The notes below the pieces were generated by a model, which had not been told where the DNA came from, did not search any database, and saw nothing but the letters and a program-made list of their open reading frames with translations. A program made the translations under genes and the position numbers. A stretch of DNA of 42,077 nucleotides from a virus: positions 1-42,077 of IMG/VR virus record IMGVR_UViG_3300025889_000246; one strand, 5' to 3'. Each line of letters opens with the position of its first letter. The first letter of the stretch is position 1. Below are positions 7,051-35,222 of the stretch, piece after piece.

Positions 7051-10000
7051 TTATGATGTTAGCTTAAAGTAACCTGCGAATCCCGTTTCATCTTCCACTT
7101 TATTATTAGAAGTTGTAGTATCAATATCCTCTGTAGTTATTATATTTATATTCATCATAGCTCTTTGTCTAAGATACAAATAAACGGCATTCCTTTCTTC
7201 ATTTTTTAACTGTTTATTATAAATAATAATATCTGATACACTAAAACTTGATGTTCCATTATTTGCGCCAATTATTGGATTTATATCAAATTTGAAAGAT
7301 TCTTGATTTGATAATTCTTTGGCTCCCTTGCTTATATTATTTATAAAGCTTTTATAAACTAATTTTCTTCCATCTTTTGATGCAGCAACATTATAAACAA
7401 AAGCATATGATGGCATTAATTCATCTGCATTTTCAGAAGTACTAGTTTCCACAGAGTAATTATTTCCTCTATTCGGCATACCGGTGGATTCTTTAATCTC
7501 GCTACTCGCGTTATATAAATAACTGACATTATTATTACTATTAAACTTAGTAAAACTCAGATTCTGGCTGCGGATTTTTTTATTATCCGCATTAAATTGC
7601 CTTTTGGAGCCAAATGAATCTGGAAAAACTAAATAAAATATATCAAATGCTTCGGTATTATTAGTTAAAGTATAATCTGTTGAATTGTTATAAATTCCAT
7701 TTATAACTGCAGAAGCTAAATTGTCAAATTGTATACATGGCTTTCCATTGAAGCGGGATACTGCATTGTCACTAGCAGCGACATTGTAAAATTTTGGTTT
7801 ATTAGTAGCATCACCAACAATCTGAACAGCAACAGCAGAAAGCGCAGAATTTTTCGCAGCAGCTACCCACGTTTCCACATCTTGCCCATTTGTGGCATCA
7901 GTTGTTCCGGTGTTATAAACCGTTGTGCTAGCATCCCATCTCGCTATAAAATTACCGATATTTTCAGGTTGAAAATCTGAATTAGGAAAAAACAATGCAC
8001 CAATTAAGTTACTTGTTGTGTATGCGCTACTAGCTGATTTAACAGCAAATCCTCCTCGACCTCCTAATTTCCCTACTTCGTCATTACTTGTGCTACTAAT
8101 TACCGTAAATAAACCATCATCAAAAGAGCTGTCTGGTGCCCTATCTCCATATTGACCAAAAGCACCTCCTGCACCCCCCTGCGAAATTTGATAATTTAAG
8201 TTGAATGACCTGCCAGCTCCAGCTCTTTGTGTATTACCTTTATTTGTTTCGTTCCATGCTGTTTTCTGGTAAGTGTTTATGCCCTGTTGATAAGTTGAGC
8301 CGGGATCAGACTTAAATGATCCTTGCCCACCACCACCAAATCCAGCAGTTTGGATTCCAGCAAAATCACTAAAATCAAATTCTGCGAGCAAAGAATTTTT
8401 TCCACCAGCATTAATATCAAGTATTATTTTATTTTCAGATTTTGTCAAATAAACTGGTGTATTTAGATCAATGTCCCTGTCTTGCTTTGCTTGTCTAACC
8501 TGAGAAGCAGCTCTAGCCGCAAAAAGCCTATCCCCACCTCCACCTCCACCTCCTCCAGCATAAATACTAAAAATGCTTGGTAAATATATTCTAAAATTAT
8601 TTATACCGCTAGCTATCTCAATAGCATTCCCCCCTACACCACCGTCTGTACTTTTTCCGTATTGCGCTGGTTGAATATCAAAACTAATACCGCCACCAGA
8701 AGAAGGAGAGTCGGTCCATACTACTTTAGCTATTCCAGCATTACCCCCTACACCACCAAGGCCAATTATTTTAGCATTGTTTTTTAAATACAGATTCATC
8801 TGTAACTCCGAACCTAAACTAGGACCAACATTAACCACTGCCCCTGTTTTTATAGCTGGGGCTGGAATTTTCGGACTATTACTAAGTAATTGTTCATATT
8901 TACTAGAACCAATAGTGCTATTTTCATCAATAATAAAATGAACACCAGTGTAATAATCTAAGAAATTTGATTTACTTATATTTCTTTTGTTGATTTCTGT
9001 TTCAAATCTGTCTTTTAAAATTACATTTGACTCACCATCTTGTAAATATATTTCCAGTGCGCCTTTTTCAGCAGTTGACAATTTTATTGTGGGATCAGGA
9101 TTATCTCCGGGCTCTAAATTAGTAGACCCGGAAACTAAACCTGTTAAAACATCATTACTAACACTTTGAGAAAATGAGTCTACACCACTACAATAAACCC
9201 AGTCAGAATAAGAAATTAAAGTGCTAGTGTTTGAACTGTCATAATGCTCTCCTCTTATTCTGTAGTAGTAATCTGTGCTTGCTGTTAAATTAGTATCAGA
9301 ATATGTATTATAACCATCAATTCCCGTAGGAGTACCATAGTAAAAAGAATTTAAATACGTTCCACCCACAGCAGGAGGCAATGTTGTTGGGCGATCTATT
9401 TTTGGTATTTCTATCGTTGTTAATGCGCTCCAATTTTGAGTAGCATCAGTAGATCTTTCTATTTTGTATTTTTCAAAATAATAACCCGTCGGAGGATTGA
9501 CCCATCTTAGATCATGATAATAAACACCAAAATCATCTTTTTGTCCGGTTATTCCTAAAAATTTCTGAGGATGAGCTGGAGTTAATTCTGATGTACTACC
9601 AAAATGACCTGTTACATATCCTGTTAAATTGACCCGTATAACGCCTAATTCAGGTTGACCAGCATAATAAGTACGATCTTGAGTTCCATCTATTTCTGAT
9701 ATAAAACTCAAATTTATTGCTGTGTTATAAGAACCAGTTCCTGCTGGACCAGTAATTGGGGATTGAGGACCTGATGTAGACTTTAAGCCATAAAAATCAA
9801 AAGGAATGAATTTAGTAGATCCAGCTAATATAGTTACTCTTCTATCATCATTCACATCATAAGTTCCACTTATAAAATCATAAGTTTGATCAAAGTTATG
9901 GGCAGAGCTATCCAGCTCTAATGTCATTCTTACAGATGTTGTTCCGCTATTTGTTAAATAAAAACCCGTGCGTATTGCAAAACCTGTTTGCACAGCAAAC

Positions 10001-10068
10001 TCCATCCCAGTTACTCCAATGTAACCGGTGCCTTCTGCTCTTTGTGTGACTGCTGTAGGTATACTCAT
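7051..10068 (-). CDS. Large tail adhesin: FN3-like, glycine-rich and LamG-like lectin domains
   Basis: The 1005-residue product has a modular layout. Residues about 170-295 look like a fibronectin-III domain with unusual YY-rich turns. Residues about 430-675 are extremely glycine-rich (a run of eight Gly near 505-512, plus GGGGQG and GGAGGAFG), as in phage adhesins built on polyglycine helices. Residues about 700-985 resemble a LamG/concanavalin-type lectin, with FIARWDAST at the start, KPCIQFDN in the middle and DIIIYNKQLKNEERNAVYLYL at the end. The family pattern suggests binding of cell-surface glycans. The gene overlaps the upstream gpM-like gene by 4 bases (ATGA) and lies just before gpL, a position where lambda has no fibre. 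The receptor is unknown. Confidence 0.7.
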   Translation of the reverse strand: MSIPTAVTQRAEGTGYIGVTGMEFAVQTGFAIRTGFYLTNSGTTSVRMTLELDSSAHNFDQTYDFISGTYDVNDDRRVTILAGSTKFIPFDFYGLKSTSGPQSPITGPAGTGSYNTAINLSFISEIDGTQDRTYYAGQPELGVIRVNLTGYVTGHFGSTSELTPAHPQKFLGITGQKDDFGVYYHDLRWVNPPTGYYFEKYKIERSTDATQNWSALTTIEIPKIDRPTTLPPAVGGTYLNSFYYGTPTGIDGYNTYSDTNLTASTDYYYRIRGEHYDSSNTSTLISYSDWVYCSGVDSFSQSVSNDVLTGLVSGSTNLEPGDNPDPTIKLSTAEKGALEIYLQDGESNVILKDRFETEINKRNISKSNFLDYYTGVHFIIDENSTIGSSKYEQLLSNSPKIPAPAIKTGAVVNVGPSLGSELQMNLYLKNNAKIIGLGGVGGNAGIAKVVWTDSPSSGGGISFDIQPAQYGKSTDGGVGGNAIEIASGINNFRIYLPSIFSIYAGGGGGGGGDRLFAARAASQVRQAKQDRDIDLNTPVYLTKSENKIILDINAGGKNSLLAEFDFSDFAGIQTAGFGGGGQGSFKSDPGSTYQQGINTYQKTAWNETNKGNTQRAGAGRSFNLNYQISQGGAGGAFGQYGDRAPDSSFDDGLFTVISSTSNDEVGKLGGRGGFAVKSASSAYTTSNLIGALFFPNSDFQPENIGNFIARWDASTTVYNTGTTDATNGQDVETWVAAAKNSALSAVAVQIVGDATNKPKFYNVAASDNAVSRFNGKPCIQFDNLASAVINGIYNNSTDYTLTNNTEAFDIFYLVFPDSFGSKRQFNADNKKIRSQNLSFTKFNSNNNVSYLYNASSEIKESTGMPNRGNNYSVETSTSENADELMPSYAFVYNVAASKDGRKLVYKSFINNISKGAKELSNQESFKFDINPIIGANNGTSSFSVSDIIIYNKQLKNEERNAVYLYLRQRAMMNINIITTEDIDTTTSNNKVEDETGFAGYFKLTS

Positions 10069-11249: not shown

Positions 11250-12061
11250 ACAGCAGCCTTACCTGTTAAATATTCTTGCGAAACAGAAAGAGAACCTTCC
11301 ATAAACCCGTTAGCTGCTGCAGACAAATCATTTTGATAAATTTGACCTGTGCAACCAAATTCTGTCAATGGCGACTCTCCATACACATCATAAATTTTAA
11401 TTACGACTCCCGCATTAGTACCAGTAAAAGATATTGCATTTCCAAAATCTTCGCCTTTTACAGACATATTGATAATAACATTTTCTTTTGTCACCCTGTA
11501 AGGAACCTCATTGCCAATTGTTACTACAGGATTTCTATCTGCTTTTACAGAATAATCAAAAGACATCTGTTTGTTTATACCAATATCATCTCCAGCTAAA
11601 AACGATCTTAAACCATGACCAATTGGAACTTCTTCTTGAATAGAACTGTAAGATTCAAAGTCTGAATCTGATCTACCATTGTCATTTAAAGACCCTAAAG
11701 ATCCGTACAAATCTATTTCTGATTGAAATAAAATAGGTTGAAATGGAGCCACAGAAAAACTCAAAGATCTAACAAATCCGCTTTCAAAACTAAGACCTGC
11801 AAAAGATCCATTAAAAGCTTCTCCGGTATGTTCTATAGCTGTCAAAGGATTTAAAAAATCATGAAAATCACCTGTACAATAATGAGAAAAACTTAATGTA
11901 CCTTTTGTTGGCCCTTGTGGCGCATAACGAATAACAGAACCCGTCACATCTGTAACTGGCTCTAAAGAAGCGCTAAAAGATAAAGTAGCATTCTCAGCAA
12001 AAATACTGGTGTTTGCTATCTTAAGTAACGCTTTTTCGTATTTTATAAATTTTGTTGCCAT
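11246..12061 (-). CDS. Tail-tube-like protein (paralog 3)
   Basis: The 271-residue protein shares a layout with the genes at 13648-14580 and 24923-26302. Residues 27-75 read LSFSASLEP, then APQGPTKGTLSFSHY, then HDFLNPLT, matching the same block in the 310-residue paralog (LSMSYSVAR, EPPQGEISFTRNY, DPLLDLTG). Residues 94-121 (FESGFVRSLSFSVAP and onward to DLYG) match the shared GF-x-T-x-YS-x-x-A-VGS block. It therefore probably adopts the tail-tube beta-sandwich fold and may form a distal tail ring. It is coupled to its neighbours by a 1-base overlap upstream and a 4-base overlap downstream. It could instead be a distal-tail adaptor of similar fold. Confidence 0.55.
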   Translation of the reverse strand: MATKFIKYEKALLKIANTSIFAENATLSFSASLEPVTDVTGSVIRYAPQGPTKGTLSFSHYCTGDFHDFLNPLTAIEHTGEAFNGSFAGLSFESGFVRSLSFSVAPFQPILFQSEIDLYGSLGSLNDNGRSDSDFESYSSIQEEVPIGHGLRSFLAGDDIGINKQMSFDYSVKADRNPVVTIGNEVPYRVTKENVIINMSVKGEDFGNAISFTGTNAGVVIKIYDVYGESPLTEFGCTGQIYQNDLSAAANGFMEGSLSVSQEYLTGKAAV

Positions 12062-13644
12062 TAGGTTATATCGAATTCATAAACAAAAGTAAGACTGGCT
12101 CCATTATATCTACCACTTGGAGCGCACCATGCTATGGTGGCTGTTGATTCAGCAGTAAATTCAAGGTAAGATTCTGAAGAGCTATCAATACTAAAAGTTA
12201 AAATGCAATTATCAGAAGCTGAAGCACTATCAAAAGATGCTGTTAAGTAACCAGCATTAACACCATTATTGCTAGACTCAAAAGACAAACAAGTCGCACC
12301 TTGCGCAGTAGCATCTACGTTGAAATTTCCATAAGCTGCTATTAATTTACCCGCATAAGGCATAACTGATTTCGCAATTTCATCAGAAGTTTCAGGGTAA
12401 GGATTGCCACTATTTGGATCAGTAATAGCAGAATAAGAATCGATTCTAGGATCTATATTTATAGCTGGCATATAAGCCGTAATACCCGTATTATTGAAAC
12501 ATTTTAATGGATGAGTAAAAACTTGGACAAATCTCCCGGTATTATGCCCAGAATTAGTTTTGTTATGAGTGTTGATGCCATGAGCTAAATATGCACACCC
12601 CCCAGTATCAACATAAAACAAATTGTTACAAACTGTAGTATTGTCAAACACAGCATTTGAAGCATTAAGTTGAGCTGTTTTATGATGAATTCCAAAGTAT
12701 TGATTGCTCCCATTTTTAAATGTTCCCGTTATCCAATTAACTCTTTGCGTACTACTTTGACAATTAGAATAACTTAAAACATTAGAATAAGCATTGCTGT
12801 CTGTGTTCTTAAAATATATCCACGAACCATTAGAATTATTACTATAAAAATCTCCAATAAGTCCATTATTTGTTTCTGAAACATTTAAAGCAGCATCAAA
12901 ATCTGTTGTTTTAACCCCTAACTGACCAGAAGCATTAAAATTAATATTAGACGCTCCTCCAGTATTAGCATTACCTAAACTAAATCCTCCAGCAGAAGTA
13001 TTAGAAATATATAAGCTGTTAGTAGCAGTCGTCCCTGAATCTCTTCTTAGTTCTATTACAGCTCCATTAGGATTATTTTGCACAATAGCATCTGATCCAC
13101 TTACAGCGCCAACTATATGAAGAATAGCTCCGGGGCTAGTCTCACCTATACCTATTTTTGATGAACTTTCATAAATAACACTGTTCGTTAAAGTTGTAGA
13201 ATCTGACCATTTAGGAATGTAATTAGCTATTCCACCAGTTAATAATCCACCGCCTCCAATATCAGATGTTGTTATGTTGGTCCAAGCATAAGTATCTGTA
13301 CCTGTTACTTTTAAAAACTTACCTGTAGTACCAGCACTGCCGCCAGTATCATAAATACCTCCTGTTACATGAAATGTTCCATTTACTTGCAGCGCATAAT
13401 TTGCTGTTGTGCCACCAATACCAATGTTTCCACCATCTTTGATAAATAAAGACACATTACTGCCATCATCGTAAAACGTAATGCCGTTTGCGTTGAGTGC
13501 GTAAAATGTCTCTCGCTTAAATAAATTGTCAACAGTGATGTTTTTGATTTCAGGGTTAGTTATAGAAGAATTTTTATCTCCTATAAATAACACATTACAA
13601 CCTGCTGTTGTCGTTAATGTATTGTAGTCTAGTATTTTTGGCAT
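12061..13644 (-). CDS. Tail fibre protein with GIG-type beta repeats
   Basis: The 527-residue product has three copies of the phage-fibre repeat of the form IGIG-TT-P---L-V-G: residues about 73-92 (GNIGIGGTTANYALQVNG), 163-182 (KIGIGETSPGAILHIVG) and 240-260 (QLGVKTTDFDAALNV). Such repeats occur in trimeric fibres and short tail fibres. The C-terminal 100 residues are rich in Ser, Ala and aromatic residues and look like a compact beta domain. No S74 chaperone endosialidase is present. The gene is wedged between two tail-tube-like genes, with 3 bases to the upstream gene and a 1-base overlap with the downstream gene. This placement suggests a structural appendage along or near the tail end. 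Receptor binding is an inference. Confidence 0.65.
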   Translation of the reverse strand: MPKILDYNTLTTTAGCNVLFIGDKNSSITNPEIKNITVDNLFKRETFYALNANGITFYDDGSNVSLFIKDGGNIGIGGTTANYALQVNGTFHVTGGIYDTGGSAGTTGKFLKVTGTDTYAWTNITTSDIGGGGLLTGGIANYIPKWSDSTTLTNSVIYESSSKIGIGETSPGAILHIVGAVSGSDAIVQNNPNGAVIELRRDSGTTATNSLYISNTSAGGFSLGNANTGGASNINFNASGQLGVKTTDFDAALNVSETNNGLIGDFYSNNSNGSWIYFKNTDSNAYSNVLSYSNCQSSTQRVNWITGTFKNGSNQYFGIHHKTAQLNASNAVFDNTTVCNNLFYVDTGGCAYLAHGINTHNKTNSGHNTGRFVQVFTHPLKCFNNTGITAYMPAINIDPRIDSYSAITDPNSGNPYPETSDEIAKSVMPYAGKLIAAYGNFNVDATAQGATCLSFESSNNGVNAGYLTASFDSASASDNCILTFSIDSSSESYLEFTAESTATIAWCAPSGRYNGASLTFVYEFDIT

Positions 13645-13647
13645 TTT

Positions 13648-14580
13648 TTAAATAAAGTTTTTAAATTGTAAATCGATTGCTAATAACCCATCAACAGATG
13701 TAGTTATACTTTCTGACACTAAATTGCCAGACGCTGGTATGTTTCCATCATAAGCCGTGATTCCCCTGCCGTCATCTTGTATAATTGCATTATTATGATC
13801 TCTAATAAACTCAGAATCATGATCTAAAAGTCCATCTAATGTGCCTTCTTCTATCGGGCACCTTATATTTACACTCAAAGATTTATATACACCACTTCTA
13901 ACATTATCTATCATGTTAGCTGTATAATAATCATCTATTTCTATTGTAAAATTGGTTGATAACTCTACAGGTGTTTGAGTTATAACCTGTGTTGGCGCAT
14001 AATAGTTTTGACTTGTTTTTTCTCTTAAATCATAAACAGGTGTTCTTGTTATATTATATTCTTGACTAAACTTAGTAATTCTATTACTATCGCTTTGATC
14101 AACCGATAAAATTATATTATCTTGATTCAGAAAGCATAAATTTGGCAATTCATAGATACCTGAGTAGTCTAACTCTCCACCTCTAACGCCGCTACCTAAT
14201 TGCCCAAATACAACAAAAGTACATCGAACTTGAGGTATAGAGCCCACATCTGCAGAAATAGAATAATTTGTTAAATAACCAGATGTGAACCCTATTACCT
14301 GTCCTGCACTTTCATTCAAATCGCTTGCATATATCAAAGATCCATCTACACCATAATCACCTGTCAAATCCAATAAAGGGTCATTATAAATATAATTTCT
14401 AGTAAAAGATATTTCTCCTTGCGGTGGTTCAGCTAAAATAGGCTGTATATGACCACCACCAAGAACGTTAATAGGGCGACGAGCTACACTGTAGCTCATA
14501 CTAAGATCTGTAATACCTGAGATCCCTGTACCGCCAACATAAAAAATATGCTCGTAACTTGGTGATGCGTTATATGCCAT
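13648..14580 (-). CDS. Tail-tube-like protein (paralog 2)
   Basis: This 310-residue protein follows the tape measure gene with one base between stop and ATG. Residues 97-127 (SGYLTNYSISADVGSIP, ending in TFVVFGQ) match residues 188-216 of the rightward major tail tube protein (NGFITDYSVEAAVGSLP, ending in VEAFN). The N-terminal half also aligns with the 271-residue paralog at 11246-12061. The C-terminal half repeats a beta-rich pattern with EIDDYYTANMIDNVR and LSVNIRCP. I read it as a second tube-type protein, perhaps a distal tail protein or tube-tip ring. Lambda has no such gene directly after the tape measure gene, so the role is inferred from the fold and position only. Confidence 0.6.
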   Translation of the reverse strand: MAYNASPSYEHIFYVGGTGISGITDLSMSYSVARRPINVLGGGHIQPILAEPPQGEISFTRNYIYNDPLLDLTGDYGVDGSLIYASDLNESAGQVIGFTSGYLTNYSISADVGSIPQVRCTFVVFGQLGSGVRGGELDYSGIYELPNLCFLNQDNIILSVDQSDSNRITKFSQEYNITRTPVYDLREKTSQNYYAPTQVITQTPVELSTNFTIEIDDYYTANMIDNVRSGVYKSLSVNIRCPIEEGTLDGLLDHDSEFIRDHNNAIIQDDGRGITAYDGNIPASGNLVSESITTSVDGLLAIDLQFKNFI

Positions 14581-14581
14581 T

Positions 14582-17500
14582 TTACTTTGCTACTTTAGTT
14601 TTACTTAATGAGCCGCCAGTTCTTTGCTCTTCATTGATAACCTGAAGAACAACAGATTTAATTCTTTCTGATAAATCTTTGGCTTTTGTTTTTTGATCGT
14701 TGGAACCACTTTGTTGATTACCATCTGTACTGCTAGAGCCTTCTCCACTTGATCCCATATTAATATTAATACTAATATTATTAGTATTAGAAGAATCAGA
14801 AGAACCTAATTTTTGAGCAGATTCTGCGACGCTTCCTCCTTCTTGATAGCCCGGTATATACCCGCCGTTAATGCGGTTCATGAATCCAAGACCATATTTA
14901 CGCACAGCTCTATTATTCATTACAAATTCTCCACCAGCCATAAATGCAGGAATAGAATCTATATTTCTAGGACCGCTAGAGATATATCCCCCAGCTTGCT
15001 TAACATAACCTGTCTTATACGGACCCATACCAGACGCTGGCACAGGAGGGCCAGCATAACCTTCTGGTAGCTCAGCAGGTATGTCCCCAGAAGCTCCACC
15101 TCCAAATTTACCTTGCATTGCTGCTCCTGCAGATCCTATAACAGCAGAAACAGCAGTTTGAATAATCATGTTCCTTAAAGCTGTTTTTTTAGCTTTCTTT
15201 TCTTGCCTTCTTTGCTCTGCAGCAATAGCAGCGTCTCTCATTTCTTTTAGCAATGGATCGTCGCTAGCATAATACATGCTGCTCATTTGACCGCTGCTTT
15301 TTAAATTTACATCTTGATTTAAAAATGCTCCTCCACCCTTAAATCTTGGAGCCATTCCGAAATTTAATCTATCAATTGCTGAAGGGCCACCTAACGCTCG
15401 CACAGCATTTCTATTTAAAACGTATTCTCCATCTTCAAGTAAAGCTGGGTTTCTATCTCCGGTACGATTACCAGAAATATACATACCATTTTGAGCTTTT
15501 ATAACGCCACCTCGTTGCTTTTTAAATGGCACAGCTCCTAAAGTCATAACTCCACCAACAATATTTTCTAAAGCTTGTCGGCGCATAATACGCATAAAAT
15601 CCATAGCAACATCCGTTAAAGCACTTTTAAGATCTTTTGTTTTGTCTAAAGTAGCTTCCATGGCAGAAGCCATACCATCCCTAAATTTGATAGGAATTTC
15701 TTTAGTCATGCTATACTGGAATGTTTCTAGATCATCTTTAACCTGCCCCATACCTTCTTTAAGACCAAGACCTATACCGCTAGGACCGCGCTTTTGAAGT
15801 TCTCTTAAGAATTTTTCGTTTGTTTGTCTATAGTCTTCATTAAATTTCTCTCTGCTAGCCGCAGCTTGTAATTCAATTTCTTTTCTTTCTGCTTCAGCAT
15901 TGTCTAGGATTTCTTTTTGCCTTGCCACAAAATCATTATAAGCTGCTGAATAATTTGCATCCCCCGGACTAACTTGCCCTAAAGTTTCACGCCTTGCTTT
16001 GGCGATAGCTTGCTCTTGATCCGTGAAAGATCTTTCTAAATCTCTTTGTTCTTTTGCGTTTAAATCACCCACATCAGCTCTAAACCTAGCTCCAGCAATA
16101 GATTGAGATTCTCTTATTCTTTGAGAGCCGGTAAGTCCAACGCTCATATCTAAGCCAAATTCTCTTCTAGATAAAGCAAGATTAACATCAGCTTGCTGTT
16201 TTGCTATTTGCGCATCAGCAATTCTTCTTTGAGCCTGAATGCTAGATATTTCTCTTTGAGCTTCTAATTCTTCTTTTGTGTTTTGAGCTCTAATTTCCTC
16301 AATGCGTATTTTTTCTTGGTTTATTGTTTTTTCATTATTTAGAGTTTTATTTCTTTGCTCATTTTCTTTAACTAATAATTCATAATTATCAAAAAAAGCT
16401 TTAATACTTGGATTAGCAATTATTTCATCTTCGGTAAATAAAGCTCTCATTCTTGTGTCAAAGCCAGATATATCTCCCCCTGACTTTAAAGCAGCCTCAA
16501 AGTCTGTTAGGGCTGCTAATCCTTCTTGGCTTTTGTTTGCTTTGCCAAAAATATCTGCATATTTTGCTGCGTTATCAGCGTAAAATTGATCAGCAGAATT
16601 AACGACTTTATTTGCATAGTCTGCTTCTATCTGGGATTTCATATTGTTGAATTTTTCGATAGGAGCATTGATGCCATCTAGCATAGAATTTTGCAGATTT
16701 GTCATAGCATCAGTAAACTGTTTTTGTATATCTCTATCTTTAATAGATTGTTGGGCTTTTTTTACATCAATAAGTATTCTATCTTTGATAGCTGTAAAAT
16801 TAATTATCTCTTGCTCTTCAGGTGTTAGCGTAGTTTTCTCAGAAGTTGCTTTTCTTTTAGAAGCTTGATTTAGCAAGCTGTACATAAAACGACCTTTTTC
16901 TTGACGATTCATTTCTGCAAAGCCGCCCTGCTTAAAAGCTTTTATTTGATCAAAGTCTACACCCAATAAGCTTTGACCTTGCATATCAAGACTTAGAGAA
17001 GTTGCGTATCCTAATTTTTCTTGAGACATAGCTGCTTCTAATGCTCTTTTCTTGAAACCTGCTTGACCATAAACAGATGGATCTACAAATTCATCTAAAA
17101 ATTGGTTGGCTAATTGATCCATAGTGATATCAGAAGCATTTTCTCCAGAAGCTAACAATCTAGCGCCAATTGATCCAGCAGCTCTATTTTTTTCATATTT
17201 TAGTAAAGATGCAGTCATTTCAGTAATGCTGCCGTTAGCCTCTTTAAAAGATCCATCTAAACCGCTACCACTTTCTTGCAGTTTTTTCATGGCATCAGCA
17301 GCTCTTTTGTTAGCATCTGTTAATTCGTCTTGTGTCAAAGCAGAAGCGATATCTTTTTGCGCTTGAATATATTGCTCTGCTGCAGAAGAATTTGCTTCTG
17401 TAGTTTTTTGATAATCATCAGCTTTTTGCTTGAGCTCTTCTAGAGATAAAGATGAATCATATGCGGCTTTGCCTACACCTATTAAACCTCCAATAACTGC

Positions 17501-20500
17501 TCCCGGCAAACCACCAATCATAGCACCTGATACCGCACCAGAAAGTCCCCCCGAAATCGCTGAACCTGCAAATCTTTGGCCTTGTGTTTGATCGGCCCTT
17601 GATTTCCCGCCGCTAATATATTGTTCCGCAACCCCACCTATTACAGGAGCTAAACTCATAAGCGCGAAACTCCCCCCAACACTTCCTATATTATTTTTTA
17701 TTCCTCGCGCTATAGGAGATCTTTCAAGCATTGATTTTTGCTTTACAATCTTTTTTTGCAAAGTAGATGCGCTAACAGCAACAACATTCATTGAAGCAGT
17801 AGCCTTTGAAGCGCTATTTGATAAACTTTGGAATTTAGGCTCTAAATTTTTTATGGTTTGCGCAGTTAATCCTGAACTTTGAGCTGTAAGCATTAACTGG
17901 TTTTTAATAGCATCTGCAGCATGCCCAGCTTGAGACATATTTTTTATTATGTTTTCAAATCGGGATTGAAGCTGTTTAGCGTTTTGCCCACCCAATCGGC
18001 CACCGCTTTTTGCAGCTGAAACACCAAAAATTTGACCGCTAGCAAAATTCGGCACATAGCCCCCAGCCATAGTAGCGCCTTTACGCATCATGCCAGCCAT
18101 ATTTTGTGGCTTGATACCTCTTCTTGCATTTGTTATCAAATGAGTATCATAAGCAATCTTTTCGCCGGGAGGGCCTTGGAACATTCCCCGAACCATAGGA
18201 CGGCTTAAATTTTCTGAAATAACTCTTCCGGTTTTTAAGGCAGCGGGTGCTTTTAGCTCTCCACCTTTAACTTCCATGACACCTTTTAAAATACCACCTT
18301 CAGTTTTGATTAAATCTACTGCGCTATTGTCATTGCCATACAATTCTCCTCCATGAGCTAATCTGTAGCCCATGGCTTTTATTTTAGGATTTTTAGCAAC
18401 CTCTGCTTCTACTTTGTCTCCATAAACTTTCGGGCTCATCCCCCTCTTCATTACGGAACGAATAGGTAAAGATATATGATTATCGTAACCTGTTTTAACT
18501 AAATCTTCTGGGTGAATATTTGGATTTTGAGCAGATGCACTGGAAATATTTGCAGCTGAAGCTAAGCTGCCTAGGGGCATACGGCCACCAGCTAAATAAG
18601 GTATATAACCATTAGCGCCTTTTACTATGCCAGATGTGTCAGCTGGTTTATTCAAATTTGTTATAAGTAAAGTTTTTACTTTTACATTTTCTCCAGCTGG
18701 AGTCTTAAACATACTACCCACTCTAGGATCAAGTAAATTTTCACCTATGAATCTCGAAGGTTTATTTAAAGTTTGTGTTTTTTCTAAACCTCCACCTTTA
18801 ACTTCCGCCATAGCGGTGATTCTGTTACCTACTATTTTAACAAGATCTATTGCGCTATTATCTTTTCTGTAAAAGTCATGTGCAGATTGCCAGTTTTTAC
18901 CATTACCAACTAAAGAGAACCCAGATAAATTTGTTTTAAATTCATTTAAAACAAAATCTTCATAAGCTTCTCCGTATTTTTTCTTACTTTTATATTGCGT
19001 TTGATCGTTAAATGCAGGAAAGTCCTCAAATCCAAACTCTGCATCATAACCACTTTTAAGCATATCATTTGGATTGATATTTTTATTTCTTTTTGATGCT
19101 GATGCTAAATTCCCTTTAGCTACTTGCGATAATTTAGTATTATAACCATATGCAGCAATAGGTACAGCGCCAGCTGGCATACCATACCTAGAAATCATAT
19201 CTTGATTAAATATGGCACTGCCTCCAGATCCACCATAATTAGGAACCATGACCTCACTGCTATTAGCCACAACCGGGCCAACTTTACCGCCACCAAAAGC
19301 AAAATTAGGAATAACAACAGGATAAGCTCCATTTCCAGCTCCACCAACGCCTCTACTTATCGCGCCTTGTTCTGCGCGAATGCTAGGCATATAACCGCCA
19401 GCTTTGTTTTTTATTTTTTTAGCAGTATCACCTTCTACTCCTGATGAAGTAAGATAAACTCCTCCTGAAGTAAGGTTTTTTGCAATTGAACTGCTAAGAT
19501 TACTTTGCGCTATAAATTGATTTGTTATGCCTTTAGCTCTACTTAAAACTAATTCTAGTTGTTTAGCTTGATTACCTTCTGCTTGGAAAATTTGCTGAGC
19601 TAATTTTGCATCCTGACTTAAAAGTTTATTTATAAATTCTTCTGTTTGTGCTCGTTTTGCAGAAGCTGTAGTAATATTTAATAATACAGGTAAAGCTTGA
19701 GTTAAAAATCCAAAAGATTGTTTGGCAACATTGAATAAAACTTTTAGTGCGCCAACTAATACTGGACCTTGTAATACATTCGCAAATCCTTTTAAAAATC
19801 CTTTTGCTATAGTTGAACCTTCTTTCGGATCTAGCAAATTATTGATTCCGCTTATTACAGAGCCAAAAGAAGAAACAATACTTTTAGCCAAACCTAAAAA
19901 GGCTTCGTCGCCTAAAGTTTTCTGAAGTTTGGCAAACTCTGTACCGGTATTTTGCAGCAATGCAGATAAAGTTTGATTTAACTTAAAGTTAGCTTGTTCT
20001 GCTTCATTGGTAGCATTTTTTGAAACATCTAAAGCTTTAGCTGTAACAGAATATTCTTTATTTAAATCTTTTAAAATCGCAGAGAGAATATTAGCTTGGA
20101 ACACACCGGCAACTTGTTCACGCAAATAAGCTTGAGTAGAATCAGCTAGCTTATCATATTGTGCAGCAAAATTACTTAACACTTGAGTGGCTGGTAATAT
20201 GTTGCCTTGCACATCGCGCACAGTAACGTTGAATCTTTCTAATGATTCTAATGTAGATTCACGCTGCAAGCGTGTAAAAATTGTTTTTAATGCGTTACCA
20301 ATAACAGCGCCACCTCTACCAGTAGTTTGCTGTACGGAGGTAATCAAAGCATTTAACTCGTCAAAGTCTACCTTAGCATCTTGAGCTGCAGATCCAACGC
20401 GGCTTAAACCTTCAACAAGATCTCTAGCAGCAACAGCAAACTTTGTTTCAACAGCAACAAATTTATTAACAGCAGAAGTAGTATCTAAATCTGTAAATGC

Positions 20501-21046
20501 ATTAACAGTAGCAGTTAACAAGCTTACAGCTTTTTCGGCATTGATACCCGTCAATCGCACAAGTGTTAAAGCATCAGATGTTCTTTTTAAAACTTCTTCT
20601 GTTTTTAAACCCTGACGAGAGAACTCTAGAGCAGCTGCAGATGCTGCTTGAAAACTAGAGGCAGTTTTTTGGGCAGTATCAAACAATTGGTTGCCAAATT
20701 TTTCAAACTGATTAGCAGTTAATCCTAATATACGGTTAATATCCGCAAATGCTGCTTCTACTTCAATAGAAGTTTTAACTATGTCTTTTAATACTTTAGT
20801 AACAGATGCTAATACAGCAGTAGACGCACCGAACGCAATCACACGGGCGTTGGCCGCTTCCATCGCAGACTCGAACATATTGACTTGACCCGTGATACGC
20901 CCAAGAGGTCGAGTAAACGATTTTTCATCAATTCCAACTTTTAATTTCGCCTTACTGGCTGCTCTGGCATTAAACTGATTAATGCCCTTCTCAAAGCCTT
21001 GAATCAAATGCTGGATATTAGGATCTACATTAATTTGTATAGACAT
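14582..21046 (-). CDS. Tape measure protein with two embedded PD-(D/E)XK nuclease-like modules
   Basis: At 2154 residues this is the largest gene here. Residues about 55-400 match the TP901-type tape measure core (alpha-helical, with FSRQGLKTEEVLKRT and TTGRGGAVIGNALKTIFTRL). Residues 653-800 and 842-974 are two related PD-(D/E)XK nuclease-like modules. Around them are GYxP linker motifs (GGYMPS 550, VIPNFA 578, NGYIPYLAGG 812, GGYVPNFASG 995). Residues 1125-1195 hold glycine-zipper hydrophobic segments that could insert in a membrane. Residues about 1560-1700 form a charged coiled coil. Two typical C-terminal motifs of the form GEYVLNRNAVRALGG and GEFVMNNRAVRKYG lie near 1875 and 2045. If the whole protein were extended, the usual 1.5 angstroms per residue would give a tail of about 320 nm; globular modules would shorten that. 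It sets tail length and enters the cell with the genome. Confidence 0.92.
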   Translation of the reverse strand: MSIQINVDPNIQHLIQGFEKGINQFNARAASKAKLKVGIDEKSFTRPLGRITGQVNMFESAMEAANARVIAFGASTAVLASVTKVLKDIVKTSIEVEAAFADINRILGLTANQFEKFGNQLFDTAQKTASSFQAASAAALEFSRQGLKTEEVLKRTSDALTLVRLTGINAEKAVSLLTATVNAFTDLDTTSAVNKFVAVETKFAVAARDLVEGLSRVGSAAQDAKVDFDELNALITSVQQTTGRGGAVIGNALKTIFTRLQRESTLESLERFNVTVRDVQGNILPATQVLSNFAAQYDKLADSTQAYLREQVAGVFQANILSAILKDLNKEYSVTAKALDVSKNATNEAEQANFKLNQTLSALLQNTGTEFAKLQKTLGDEAFLGLAKSIVSSFGSVISGINNLLDPKEGSTIAKGFLKGFANVLQGPVLVGALKVLFNVAKQSFGFLTQALPVLLNITTASAKRAQTEEFINKLLSQDAKLAQQIFQAEGNQAKQLELVLSRAKGITNQFIAQSNLSSSIAKNLTSGGVYLTSSGVEGDTAKKIKNKAGGYMPSIRAEQGAISRGVGGAGNGAYPVVIPNFAFGGGKVGPVVANSSEVMVPNYGGSGGSAIFNQDMISRYGMPAGAVPIAAYGYNTKLSQVAKGNLASASKRNKNINPNDMLKSGYDAEFGFEDFPAFNDQTQYKSKKKYGEAYEDFVLNEFKTNLSGFSLVGNGKNWQSAHDFYRKDNSAIDLVKIVGNRITAMAEVKGGGLEKTQTLNKPSRFIGENLLDPRVGSMFKTPAGENVKVKTLLITNLNKPADTSGIVKGANGYIPYLAGGRMPLGSLASAANISSASAQNPNIHPEDLVKTGYDNHISLPIRSVMKRGMSPKVYGDKVEAEVAKNPKIKAMGYRLAHGGELYGNDNSAVDLIKTEGGILKGVMEVKGGELKAPAALKTGRVISENLSRPMVRGMFQGPPGEKIAYDTHLITNARRGIKPQNMAGMMRKGATMAGGYVPNFASGQIFGVSAAKSGGRLGGQNAKQLQSRFENIIKNMSQAGHAADAIKNQLMLTAQSSGLTAQTIKNLEPKFQSLSNSASKATASMNVVAVSASTLQKKIVKQKSMLERSPIARGIKNNIGSVGGSFALMSLAPVIGGVAEQYISGGKSRADQTQGQRFAGSAISGGLSGAVSGAMIGGLPGAVIGGLIGVGKAAYDSSLSLEELKQKADDYQKTTEANSSAAEQYIQAQKDIASALTQDELTDANKRAADAMKKLQESGSGLDGSFKEANGSITEMTASLLKYEKNRAAGSIGARLLASGENASDITMDQLANQFLDEFVDPSVYGQAGFKKRALEAAMSQEKLGYATSLSLDMQGQSLLGVDFDQIKAFKQGGFAEMNRQEKGRFMYSLLNQASKRKATSEKTTLTPEEQEIINFTAIKDRILIDVKKAQQSIKDRDIQKQFTDAMTNLQNSMLDGINAPIEKFNNMKSQIEADYANKVVNSADQFYADNAAKYADIFGKANKSQEGLAALTDFEAALKSGGDISGFDTRMRALFTEDEIIANPSIKAFFDNYELLVKENEQRNKTLNNEKTINQEKIRIEEIRAQNTKEELEAQREISSIQAQRRIADAQIAKQQADVNLALSRREFGLDMSVGLTGSQRIRESQSIAGARFRADVGDLNAKEQRDLERSFTDQEQAIAKARRETLGQVSPGDANYSAAYNDFVARQKEILDNAEAERKEIELQAAASREKFNEDYRQTNEKFLRELQKRGPSGIGLGLKEGMGQVKDDLETFQYSMTKEIPIKFRDGMASAMEATLDKTKDLKSALTDVAMDFMRIMRRQALENIVGGVMTLGAVPFKKQRGGVIKAQNGMYISGNRTGDRNPALLEDGEYVLNRNAVRALGGPSAIDRLNFGMAPRFKGGGAFLNQDVNLKSSGQMSSMYYASDDPLLKEMRDAAIAAEQRRQEKKAKKTALRNMIIQTAVSAVIGSAGAAMQGKFGGGASGDIPAELPEGYAGPPVPASGMGPYKTGYVKQAGGYISSGPRNIDSIPAFMAGGEFVMNNRAVRKYGLGFMNRINGGYIPGYQEGGSVAESAQKLGSSDSSNTNNISININMGSSGEGSSSTDGNQQSGSNDQKTKAKDLSERIKSVVLQVINEEQRTGGSLSKTKVAK
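18125..18523 (-). other. PD-(D/E)XK nuclease-like module, copy 2 in tape measure
   Basis: Residues 842-974 repeat the first module: HPEDLVKTGYD at the start, YGDKVEAEV helix, DNSAVDL with D911, MEVKGG with E925 and K927, ENLSRP and LITN at the end. The spacing from Asp to Glu is 14 residues in both copies. The copies have diverged strongly outside these blocks, so the duplication is old or selection keeps only the core. Confidence 0.6.
18647..19090 (-). other. PD-(D/E)XK nuclease-like module, copy 1 in tape measure
   Basis: Residues 653-800 of the tape measure contain helix YGEAYEDFVLNEF (E693, E696), then DNSAIDL with D734, then AEVKGG with E748 and K750, then a later strand LLITN. The order glutamate helix, Asp, Glu-x-Lys is the catalytic core of the PD-(D/E)XK superfamily, and no key residue is missing. 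The nuclease assignment comes from motif reading only. Confidence 0.6.
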
Positions 21047-21086: not shown

Positions 21087-22094
21087 TCATGCATTCATAG
21101 CTTTCATTAAATCTTTCATGTCCATTTTGCCACCTTTTTCTTTTAACATGCTAGATAATGATCTACCTTCTGTTTGTTTGTAGCCCAAATGATCGTAATC
21201 TTCCTGTTTTGCTCCGACTATTGTGGATGCTCCATCTTTATCTAGATTCTTCAGAACGTTCTTGGCTTTTTCTTGAGAATTAACGTAATCAATAATTTTA
21301 TCAGGATCTCTTTTGATACCTTCTGGTATTTTAGGGTAGTTCTCAAAAATATTCTTGAACATCCTAGAATAAACTATCAGCTTTACTTGATTGATAGATA
21401 ATTTGAATAATGGCTTATCGTAAAAGTTGCGCACATCCTCGCAAAAGGGCATATACATTTGAAAAAAGTCTTGTAACGTGACTTTCTGAATATTTGTGTC
21501 TTCAAAACATATGAACTTACTATTGTATGTTGATATGACGTAAGTTAATTCTTCTGCATCCAGCTCATCAACGTCGGAAAGATCAAAAAATGATTCCGTT
21601 AAATCAGCGTCCTTATAAAAAGAGCAAATAATATAATGTTCTGAAACTCGTTTTTCCGCGAACTTTTCTGCAGTTTGCCCCATTAATTCGCGTTTTTTGT
21701 AATATAAGATGTTGTATTCTTGGTTAGCTTTTTTTAAATCTTCGTCAACGGAATTAATTTCTGATAATCTATAAAGATTTTTTCTTGTGTTTTGCAAGCT
21801 ATCCACATACTGACGCTGCTTTACTATTTTGGACTCATCATCAGAAGTCCAAATTTCATTATCTGTAATATAAGCAAGGGCCTCCTCTTCTGTAGGGAGA
21901 CCCATAGTCTTAGCTTTGTTGATGAACTCATCACGTATTTTTTCTACGTGAATTTGATCAAAAACAGATAAATGTTTTATGTAAACAAGTTGATTTTCAA
22001 ATAAGAAGCTAGAATAGCCAAAAGCTATATCTCTAAAAACTTCCCTATAATTAACATCATTCTTCTGCGGCTGGCTCTGCTTTTGGTTGCTCAT
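21087..22094 (-). CDS. Putative tail assembly chaperone, second gene
   Basis: I do not recognise this 335-residue protein by a diagnostic motif. It is largely alpha-helical and charged, with a central aromatic-rich segment (FFQMYMPFCEDVRNFYDKP) and a C-terminus ending MDMKDLMKAMNA. It lies directly before the tape measure gene and overlaps the end of the preceding gene by 38 bases in another frame. That is where lambda-like phages have the G/T tail chaperone pair. The ATG (22094) begins inside the upstream gene, and the frame is open only 6 codons further upstream before a TAG, so any ribosomal shift would have to occur within about 60 bases. Separate, coupled translation is the simpler reading. 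A chaperone role is inferred from position. Confidence 0.5.
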   Translation of the reverse strand: MSNQKQSQPQKNDVNYREVFRDIAFGYSSFLFENQLVYIKHLSVFDQIHVEKIRDEFINKAKTMGLPTEEEALAYITDNEIWTSDDESKIVKQRQYVDSLQNTRKNLYRLSEINSVDEDLKKANQEYNILYYKKRELMGQTAEKFAEKRVSEHYIICSFYKDADLTESFFDLSDVDELDAEELTYVISTYNSKFICFEDTNIQKVTLQDFFQMYMPFCEDVRNFYDKPLFKLSINQVKLIVYSRMFKNIFENYPKIPEGIKRDPDKIIDYVNSQEKAKNVLKNLDKDGASTIVGAKQEDYDHLGYKQTEGRSLSSMLKEKGGKMDMKDLMKAMNA

Positions 22095-22893
22095 CGTTAA
22101 CGATTTCTTCTGCTACCTCATCATTATCCTGTAAAAATGCGTCAACATCTTCTTTGCTAAACTCTGTGCCACTAAAGTACCAGTAACTTATAATCGCAGA
22201 TACTTTACCGATAACCTTGAGAAAGAATTCGTCATCTGCTTCATCTTTTTCGTAATAATCATCCATTTTATCCTTAAAGGTTTCTCCTTTAAAGAATAAT
22301 TTATAGTCAGGAATGTTGAGAGCCAAACTTTTATAATATGTCAAATTTAATACATACCACATCATAACACGATTTTGAGCTTTAACATCGGCGGTATGAT
22401 TAAATAAAACACGGTAGTCAGATTCTGTTTCTATGATTTTGCGCTTGATTTCTGCTATTCTAACATCATAGTCTGATAGCTTTTTGCGGAGTTTTTCATC
22501 TTGTTTATCCAATCCTTTAACGGATAAATGAGAAATTTCACGCTCAATTTCAGCAGCTTCTTTGTATAAATTAAGTAGATCTCTTGCTTCTTCTTCAGCT
22601 AAAGCGCCGCCAGTATCAGCGTACTTCTTGGCCAACATGGCTTTGGTTAGAATACCTTTCTTAACACATTCGCTCATACAAATAGAAAATTCTGTTTCGG
22701 CGTCTTCTAATTGTCGGCGTGAAGGCTTCTTAATCAAGACTTCAACTGGTACTTCTTTTTTAACCTTTTTCTTGATTTCTACTTCCTCTTCAACCCCCTG
22801 ATCGTTTGTGCGTTTTTCTTTGGTTGATTCTTCGACTTCTTTTTCAAAGTCTACAGTAAATGTATAAAGCTCTTTTAACATAAAATGACTCAT
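22057..22893 (-). CDS. Putative tail assembly chaperone, first gene
   Basis: This 278-residue protein has a charged N-terminal third (repeated EVEE and KKKVKKEV segments), a predicted coiled coil around residues 105-155 (AAEIEREISHLSVKGLDKQDEK region), an aromatic-rich C-terminal part (MMWYVLNLTYYKSL and IISYWYFSG) and an acidic tail. No enzyme motif is visible. It is the first leftward gene of the tail block, and its start is 61 bases from the divergent rightward neck gene. The overlap with the next gene and the location before the tape measure gene suggest the gpG position. ATG 22893 is preceded by AT-only sequence including AGTGTTTTAATTA, a weak variant of the phage promoter element. A second in-frame ATG follows at codon 5. 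Confidence 0.5.
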   Translation of the reverse strand: MSHFMLKELYTFTVDFEKEVEESTKEKRTNDQGVEEEVEIKKKVKKEVPVEVLIKKPSRRQLEDAETEFSICMSECVKKGILTKAMLAKKYADTGGALAEEEARDLLNLYKEAAEIEREISHLSVKGLDKQDEKLRKKLSDYDVRIAEIKRKIIETESDYRVLFNHTADVKAQNRVMMWYVLNLTYYKSLALNIPDYKLFFKGETFKDKMDDYYEKDEADDEFFLKVIGKVSAIISYWYFSGTEFSKEDVDAFLQDNDEVAEEIVNDEQPKAEPAAEE

Positions 22894-32434: not shown

Positions 32435-34300
32435 CTAATTAATGAACATAGGAGTAAAAGTTTCAAAAACATCGTCAATAGTCTTATCATTTGAGTCGAA
32501 ATGTATTTTTGCCATCCAGTTTCCTAAGACCAAAGCTGAATAACTATCTTTTCTAGCTTTGTCCGGTCCTGTTTGGCGGCGCAAATTAGGAGGCAAATCA
32601 AAAGTTTGTGTACCTTGTGAAGTAGTAGTGATTTGAATTAAAGCGCATTCATTTTTTGTTAAATCTAGCATATCAGCTTGGTGCTCAATAAAATCAATCA
32701 TTTTGGCTGACGGCGCTTGTTTCATATCTTCTTCTGCTCTTAAGAATCTCAGCTTCTCAATAGGTATGCTTTTATTTCTTTGTTTGTTATAAGCTTCATC
32801 TATAGCTCTAGAAGCAAAAAATATGCGCCGGTGCTCAAAGTTAGCTTGTAGCAGCTCGTTTGCTTGCCTAATCCATTTACTGGTAGGTTTTCTTAAATAA
32901 ACAATTTTATTGTCCGAATGATTATATTCCATCCTAAACTTGCGAAGATCAGATTGGTATTCTTCTGGATTATCAAATGGAACATCAATTGTTTTAAGTT
33001 TTTTGTCTTTTGATTGGAATATTTCGCTTTCATTACACGCTTGTATAAATTGAACACCACCGTTATAGTCACCAACTATCGATACAATATTAAAATTATC
33101 TAAACAATATTCAAAATAAATAATATGATATTTTAAAGAAGTGCCCGATAATGCATAACTGTGAACAACGGTTGCTTTTTGCTCGTCTTCATGTAATTTT
33201 AAAATCTGGATAGCGAAATCATCTGAACTTTCTGTTTGCGACCATGAAGGGTCAAATGCCAAAATATATTTAGAATCAGGATCGCCTTTAATTTCCACAG
33301 AAGGATAATCTCCTTCTGGTATGGTACATAACGCCATTTTGCTTGTTTTAAAGTATCCAGAGCTATCATCTGTAAATACAGCGCCAAACTCTCGATCAAA
33401 CTGTGATTGACTCATTGTGGCTTTAGCTTGATTAACAAGATTTTGATCATAAAGCTGACTAGGAGCACAATCATAACTAAACTGCATAATACATCTAGTT
33501 GCTTTGTCTCTTTTATTTTCTTGAGTGATTAAAAATTCAAACTGGTTGTAAAGTTTGTATAAATATTCAAACTTGTAAGATGCAGAAGATAATGCTATTA
33601 ATTTGTTATTAGGCCAAACAAATCTGTCCTCCTCATTCATTTTGCCTTGCTCAATAAGCATAGTCTCAAGTCCATACAGTTCTTGGCGCTGAGTAGGATT
33701 TTCTACAACTGACAAGAACGGCACAATAACCTCATTATAAATTCTTTCTGGCATTAATAAGAACTCGTCAATAATAATTCTTTGAAAACGGAAACCACGA
33801 AGTTTCTCACCGTCGCCCAATGGTAATGCGCGAATACGACTTTGACCTATTTCCATCAGCCACTCATCGTTACTTTTAGAAACTTTTGTAATACATTGTT
33901 TGAAAAACGCAGCTTCAGGTTTAGCGGCAATATCTTCTATCTTTTTGAAAATCATTTTGGACTGACGAAAAGATTTAGATAAAATACCTATTTCTACACC
34001 TTGATTTAGAATAGCATCTAATGCTGCATAAATACCTGTAGAAAAAGATTTAGACATACCACGGCTCCATACGCCCAAAAAATAATCCGTCTCAAACATA
34101 GACTTCACAGCCATATGCTGAAACGGAAATAGCTTAATACCAAAAATTAAATCTGCAGCAAAAGAAATGTTACCCCTTAAAAATTCATAAAGAGCAATCT
34201 TAGCTTCATGTTCTTCTAAGAATCCTTCTAATGCTAACAGTTGTTCGTTATCTCGTATTCTCGACTTTGGTCTGCTCTGATTGCCTTCTTGCCAACTCAT
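32435..34300 (-). CDS. terL: Terminase large subunit
   Basis: The 621-residue protein shows both enzyme parts of a packaging motor. The ATPase has an N-terminal VWSRGMSKSFST segment (about residues 77-88) as a Walker A variant and RIIIDEF (174-180) as Walker B with catalytic glutamate E179. The nuclease part has YILAFDPSWSQ with its first acidic residue, followed by IVGDYNGGVQFIQACNES, as expected for the RNase-H-like fold. The gene overlaps the upstream zinc-finger nuclease gene by 53 bases and precedes the portal gene. It cuts concatemeric DNA and pumps it into the prohead through the portal. Length is typical. Confidence 0.92.
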   Translation of the reverse strand: MSWQEGNQSRPKSRIRDNEQLLALEGFLEEHEAKIALYEFLRGNISFAADLIFGIKLFPFQHMAVKSMFETDYFLGVWSRGMSKSFSTGIYAALDAILNQGVEIGILSKSFRQSKMIFKKIEDIAAKPEAAFFKQCITKVSKSNDEWLMEIGQSRIRALPLGDGEKLRGFRFQRIIIDEFLLMPERIYNEVIVPFLSVVENPTQRQELYGLETMLIEQGKMNEEDRFVWPNNKLIALSSASYKFEYLYKLYNQFEFLITQENKRDKATRCIMQFSYDCAPSQLYDQNLVNQAKATMSQSQFDREFGAVFTDDSSGYFKTSKMALCTIPEGDYPSVEIKGDPDSKYILAFDPSWSQTESSDDFAIQILKLHEDEQKATVVHSYALSGTSLKYHIIYFEYCLDNFNIVSIVGDYNGGVQFIQACNESEIFQSKDKKLKTIDVPFDNPEEYQSDLRKFRMEYNHSDNKIVYLRKPTSKWIRQANELLQANFEHRRIFFASRAIDEAYNKQRNKSIPIEKLRFLRAEEDMKQAPSAKMIDFIEHQADMLDLTKNECALIQITTTSQGTQTFDLPPNLRRQTGPDKARKDSYSALVLGNWMAKIHFDSNDKTIDDVFETFTPMFIN

Positions 34301-35222
34301 GTTCTATAAAGTATTGGAGATCTGTTCTCCATAATTGTTTTCCGTAATATAATATGCGCGGAATGAGAAATTTTGAATTTTTTCTGTTGCCACTAAAAAT
34401 AAATTGGCAGCGACGAGGAAAATCATACATAATATCTCTCATGTTTTTTAATATATAATCAATACTTGCTTTGCGTTTAAAATGTTTTTGTTCTGCGATG
34501 ATCTTGCTTAAAGAAGATTCTACAACCACAAACATATAAGCATCCATATCTTGAGTAAGTTGTATTTCTCTTCTGAATCTATCTAAGTTTGCTTGACTTA
34601 ACGTGCCACAAAAATCAGACGCAGATTTTCTGTCAACAAAAGTATAGTTGTAGCTATCGCCAAACAAAGTATAGTCACCAAAAGATAACTTGTGACTAGT
34701 TGTTTTAAAATCAAACTCTAATGGTTTTTGTTCTCTGGTATCTATCGCAATATCTAAATCTTCTGGTAAATCATTCGTAAAAAACCCATCAACAATATTT
34801 TGATCAAACATTAAATCAAAACTACAAAACTTAGCAAAAGAAGAATAACTGCCAAAAAGTTTTTTGATAATATCTAACTTAGGAAGAAAACAATGTTCTA
34901 ACTCTAAATGAAAAGGCAAAAAGTTTCTTTTTTTGTCGTAAACTCTTTTTAATATTTTGGATTGTACATAATCCTTGGCTTCATCACATTCCAATTGATC
35001 CAGCCATTTATTCATTTGAACTCTGTTGACAAAATCTTTATTAAAATAAGAGTCCACATCTTTAAAAGGCAACAAATCACCTGTCAGCAAATTTCTACGA
35101 GCATAAAACTGAACATAGTATTCTGCTAAATGTAAATCGTGTTGTTTAATGTGCCTGTGCAAAGAACCTAATTTTTCAAACTCTTTACCGCACACTTTGC
35201 AAGTTAATTCATATTGCGTCAT
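34248..35222 (-). CDS. C2H2 zinc finger plus ERCC4-type nuclease
   Basis: The 324-residue protein begins with a perfect C2H2 finger: C8-x2-C11-x12-H24-x3-H28. The C-terminal half has the ERCC4 (XPF-type) nuclease motifs: DTRE (D161, R163, E164), FGDYTL (G182, D183, Y184) and VDRKSASD (D197, R198, K199, D203), followed by a helix that could complete the fold. XPF-type nucleases cut branched or flapped DNA. Here the finger may supply DNA binding in place of the helix-hairpin-helix domain, which is absent. The gene overlaps terL by 53 bases and the upstream gene by 14, so a role in packaging or replication-intermediate resolution is likely but not shown. Confidence 0.82.
   Translation of the reverse strand: MTQYELTCKVCGKEFEKLGSLHRHIKQHDLHLAEYYVQFYARRNLLTGDLLPFKDVDSYFNKDFVNRVQMNKWLDQLECDEAKDYVQSKILKRVYDKKRNFLPFHLELEHCFLPKLDIIKKLFGSYSSFAKFCSFDLMFDQNIVDGFFTNDLPEDLDIAIDTREQKPLEFDFKTTSHKLSFGDYTLFGDSYNYTFVDRKSASDFCGTLSQANLDRFRREIQLTQDMDAYMFVVVESSLSKIIAEQKHFKRKASIDYILKNMRDIMYDFPRRCQFIFSGNRKNSKFLIPRILYYGKQLWRTDLQYFIEHELARRQSEQTKVENTR

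Follow-up and report, generated by a model that had tools for sequence, protein, structure and literature searches.

The window, the whole stretch of DNA analysed here (42,077 nucleotides), is a 42 kb record of an uncultivated virus, in which a tape-measure gene is surrounded by lambda-type tail genes; the same siphophage-like contig also has a terminase (Table 1). The encoded protein, of the kind that determines how long the tail becomes, belongs to the phage tape-measure proteins both by family match (PhageMin_Tail in Pfam, 1.4e-22; the PHROGs tape-measure family, 7e-37) and by its position amid the tail genes. When the whole protein was compared with cultivated phages by tblastn, matches arose only via the N-terminal tape-measure domain. 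Two genes downstream of the tape measure, a 527-aa gene (12061-13644) shows 52-61% identity to relatives, or 41% in the case of L009, against mostly 80-90% for the genes around it, which marks it as another fast-changing tail gene. In addition, a 1005-aa protein of the tail region (7051-10068) is without any PHROG match, and the gene adjoining the terminase large subunit (34248-35222) matches an ERCC4-type nuclease family (phrog_3490, 1.8e-12).

Table 1. Window coordinates of the tape-measure gene, its neighbours and the features within it.
Feature	Position	Strand	Remark
Tape-measure protein	14582..21046	minus	2154 aa ORF; Pfam and PHROGs matches
310-aa gene directly downstream of the tape measure	13648..14580	minus	same in phages with differing cargo
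Two genes (335 and 278 aa) directly upstream of the tape measure	21087..22893	minus	conserved, 78-83%
IPNFA mark upstream of slot A (residues 579-583)	19298..19312	minus	
Slot A (residues 632-810), exchanged unit	18617..19153	minus	breakpoints vs L007-L009
Module A (residues 653-800), PD-(D/E)XK-like	18647..19090	minus	E696, D734, E748, K750
GYIPYLA mark between slots (residues 813-819)	18590..18610	minus	GYIPNFA in relatives
Slot B (residues 820-995)	18062..18589	minus	independent of slot A in its divergence or exchange
Module B (residues 842-974), PD-(D/E)XK-like	18125..18523	minus	E880, D911, E925, K927
GYVPNFA mark after slot B (residues 996-1002)	18041..18061	minus	

The first-pass annotation had described two homologous modules within the tape measure, each with the core residues of a PD-(D/E)XK nuclease, and this description held in its particulars. 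Residues 653-800 and 842-974 are indeed homologous (37% identity, E=1e-28 by BLASTP), with D734, E748 and K750 in the first copy and D911, E925 and K927 in the second at the positions assigned to them, an Asp-to-Glu spacing of 14 in both, and the blocks DNSA, EVKGG, ENL, P.GE and LITN each present once per copy. Conservation, on which the annotation had let its claim depend, was complete for the key residues: in A4, an alignment of six module copies with 29-85% identity to module A, E56, D94, E108 and K110 (A4 numbering) are invariant, although the copies other than the closest relative of module A are only 29-38% identical to it. The same alignment places the helix glutamates at E696 and E880, so that the ordered set of helix Glu, Asp and ExK is found and conserved in six copies. 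The contig L004 carries module A at 85% identity, and more distant copies of module B are present in L004 and L007-L009. Among cultivated phages, no module relatives were found by tblastn; none were found by genome scan, and a scan of viral DNA for the pattern SA[IV]D...EVK[GA]G yielded no contigs beyond those already carrying the modules.

Relatives of the tape measure were collected by scanning for its N-terminal motif NARVIAFG, which yielded at least about 120 pieces of DNA from environmental phages. Only two genome contigs carry this motif, one from a Proteobacteria MAG (L138) and one from a Flavobacteriales MAG (L139), and these possibly hint at hosts. Marks following the pattern G[FYLWHMV][IVMT]PN[FYL][ASV] were counted in the 78 tape measures above 1000 aa in length among the matches listed: 72 have at least one and 70 have two or more, with 244 marks in total against 0.03 expected in shuffles. 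The unit to which each module belongs is a slot delimited by such G[YF][IV]PNFA-like marks, and it is wider than the coordinates noted earlier.

Tape measures that are nearly identical elsewhere have swapped modules, with breaks at the slot boundaries. The genes of L004 and L007 share 95.1% DNA identity over nt 1-1901 (residues 1-634), a stretch that ends exactly at the upstream boundary of slot A; the slot itself is unrelated between the two, and similarity is back from nt 2445, at the GYIPNFA mark. Moreover, L007, L008 and L009 are ~99% identical up to nt 2974, at the mark after slot B, and are divergent beyond it. The contigs were assembled from separate metagenomes, which makes one assembly error an improbable cause. 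Between the window and L004, dS is 0.26 in slot A but 1.77 in slot B, and the N-terminal and C-terminal parts give 1.52 and 1.14; NG86 values beyond 1 reflect saturation and are read as old. Slot A thus lies far below its flanks and moved between the two lineages after the backbone had diverged. A binned profile, which is noisy, agrees with this. Slot A is under purifying selection, with a dN/dS of ~0.32 between the window and L004. In addition, relatives of the L007-L009 slot A occur in tape measures that are distant in other respects (44% in L077; weak in L034, L049 and L091), and these scattered relatives, together with the different divergence patterns of slots A and B, indicate that the two slots have separate histories. 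This exchange between phages was missed in the first-pass annotation and speaks more strongly for a role of the modules as cargo. A constant carrier with exchanged domains, as expected of polymorphic toxins, is what was found here, and we infer that the exchanged domains are effectors.

Variation of the slots between phages would also be expected if the modules were inert and served as length filler or decoys, setting tail length or altering the surface that is sensed by host systems such as SNIPE, which contacts tape-measure proteins and which Bas14 escapes by tape-measure mutation (PMC13190303). Such a role is very unlikely, because the catalytic residues stay fixed while the rest of the module diverges to ~30%, and the same residue pattern appears again in distant cargo, as described below.

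Searches of the modules against Pfam, PHROGs and PADLOC gave no matches, PDB sequence searches with a single sequence, A4 and A6 gave no credible match, and the modules gave no match at the cut-off of the UPF0102/YraN family (PF02021); with these library searches empty, the case for a nuclease rests on residues and profiles. Lectin rows in the PDB search with A6 (E=0.004) covered only ~37 positions and were taken as chance. A UPF0102/YraN profile built from 20 genomes was compared with the A4 profile by hhalign, and the two aligned on G..E, Asp and EVK with P=0.0021, at an hhalign probability of only 13.5%. The score of 23.3, compared with a shuffled mean of 10.8, was reached by none of 300 column shuffles. 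The Mrr_cat profile showed no signal against A4. As a calibration, YraN and Mrr_cat, which we take to be two PD-(D/E)XK families, reached only P=0.007 against each other at the same setting, and a weak score is therefore to be expected here for a true but distant relation. Considering the 13.5% probability and the absence of a match to Mrr_cat, the link to YraN is support rather than proof, and its alignment on the putative catalytic residues favours a PD-(D/E)XK reading. By profile, UPF0102/YraN is the nearest PD-(D/E)XK family and has the order of G..E helix, Asp strand and ExK strand in common with the modules; unlike it, the modules lack a Pfam hit and are embedded in a tape measure. Their additional conserved block, I.ENL..P.V..MF with LITN, was not found in any known family.

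Structure models were of very low confidence, both for the single-sequence fold of the two modules (pLDDT 31) and for module A folded with six sequences (pLDDT 36). The elements in the latter model run in the order helix (with E696), strand, strand (with D734), strand (with ExK), helix and strand; this H-E-E-E-H-E order is that of the PD-(D/E)XK core, and Asp and ExK are predicted to lie on neighbouring strands. Foldseek returned no significant match for the module model, with BstEII ranked fourth. In a VIA structure comparison, all rows had Z under 5, and more than half of the 50 rows are, judging by their titles, presumably PD-(D/E)XK-type folds, which we assume to include CinB and CidB, Hjc, Cap4, BstEII, N.BspD6I and the R2 endonuclease, as well as cap-snatching endonucleases, Prp8 and splicing endonucleases. 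The model and these rows may lend weak support to a putative PD-(D/E)XK fold of the modules. If the likeness to nucleases were coincidental and the modules had another alpha/beta fold, fold and family searches without a significant match and an hhalign probability of 13.5% would be natural outcomes. We consider this quite unlikely in view of the order of the motifs, their invariance and the alignment with YraN on the same residues.

A related residue pattern extends beyond the modules of the window. The wider pattern G..[FYIM]E - D - (D/E)xK is present in the variable region of 38 of the 78 long tape measures among the matches listed (shuffle expectation 1.5, maximum 5), and one of three Glu/Asp/(D/E)x(K/H)-type cores is present in 44 of them, counts that are descriptive because the wider pattern was written after the sequences had been seen. 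Across 21 aligned domains of the wider pattern, G, E, D and K do not vary. A third cargo type has G..FE and DF followed by DAH.G.GH in place of (D/E)xK (L007:2842-3306, L077:9327-9860, L049, L034 and L091), and is possibly related to the (D/E)xK type, with His substituted for Lys. A profile of the wider FDF-type family gave no significant link to A4, YraN or Mrr, and homology to modules A and B is therefore not claimed; profiles likewise failed to connect the types with one another. A few other slots resemble different enzymes: a tape-measure slot in L042 (4886-6145) contains a cytidylyltransferase-related region (PF16581, 3.4e-8), and one in L081 has a weak SNase match (0.011). The slots L049:4489-5238 and L080:678-1331 resemble by eye a kinase (GHGVESW..VVYKL..DVHSGNF) and an ADP-ribosyltransferase, and Pfam found nothing in them.

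The best explanation of the locus, to which we give a probability of about 0.6, is that the tape measure holds two exchangeable cargo modules in tandem PNFA-bounded slots, each most likely a metal-dependent nuclease of the PD-(D/E)XK fold or a close phosphodiesterase derivative. Alternatively, domains of this fold might bind rather than cut, for instance by holding the front end of the DNA within the tail or by aiding its passage through the membrane. The PD-(D/E)XK fold includes non-cutting proteins, and the tape measure is next to the genome end during ejection. Nevertheless, such a function is unlikely, as Asp and ExK are retained in every copy and binding alone needs neither, and as slot A was swapped while the remaining ruler was kept.

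Returning to the nuclease reading, we infer that both modules have nuclease activity and are delivered into the host. Tape measures leave the tail before the DNA does and extend as far as the inner membrane (PMC13190303, PMC11126660). A module would ride inside the tail as part of the tape measure and, with the latter ejected ahead of the DNA, would reach the host envelope or cytoplasm, where it might refold after entry and cut nucleic acid; candidate substrates are the host chromosome, plasmids, rival phage DNA and defence RNA. The quick turnover of modules might then reflect an arms race with host factors, and the PNFA marks could act as linkers or handling sites that allow modules to be exchanged without disturbing the ruler. 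The producing cell might be safe if the module were kept unfolded or were specific in its substrate. No cargo-linked immunity gene was found beside the tape measure; the flanking genes on both sides are constant whatever the cargo, and therefore the toxin-immunity pair of classical polymorphic toxins is not seen. Moreover, a folded domain of 16 kDa may be a tight fit in the tail tube, a point against the cargo reading. For the large, mostly uncultivated tape-measure family as a whole, we see an even chance that it is a polymorphic effector carrier, with enzyme modules, mostly PD-(D/E)XK-like, that would pass from phage to phage as cassettes flanked by PNFA-type marks and would be delivered with the genome.

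If this is true, the tail rulers of numerous environmental phages would double as delivery vehicles with a load that recombination can change, which would offer a testable answer to the length and variability of tape measures, as well as natural module boundaries for the study of protein delivery by non-contractile tails. In the literature consulted, we found no description of tandem PD-(D/E)XK-like modules inside a phage tape measure or of slots bounded there by PNFA marks, and no mention of such an arrangement in work on polyvalent proteins and polymorphic toxins. A survey of phage domain mosaicism found tape measures to be mosaic by sequence and could not confirm a genuine recent case (PMC10684548); the L004/L007 pair is a candidate for genuine recent mosaicism in a tape measure and would supply the module swaps that were sought there. 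Polyvalent proteins of phages and conjugative elements are multi-domain proteins injected with the DNA (Iyer 2017, PMC5512222), and tape measures are absent from the main text of that paper. For tape measures, and so for this one, injection with the DNA is expected from the literature (PMC11126660, PMC13190303).

Tape-measure relatives with a nuclease and tape-measure-like effectors with variable domains are already known, both from bacterial injection systems. The reconfigurable effectors of the Sle1 type (PMC13277306) combine, as here, a tape-measure-like carrier with a variable functional domain, although that domain is C-terminal and belongs to bacterial contractile systems, unlike the phage modules described here. 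In Tme of the Streptomyces davawensis contractile injection system (PMC11126660), a tape-measure relative carries a nuclease domain, for which activity and phenotype were demonstrated. The Tme nuclease is a C-terminal, EndA-type domain, non-specific for DNA and RNA, in a bacterial effector, whereas the modules here are internal, PD-(D/E)XK-like and phage-borne, and would represent the phage-side counterpart to the nuclease effectors that bacterial injection systems have derived from tape measures.
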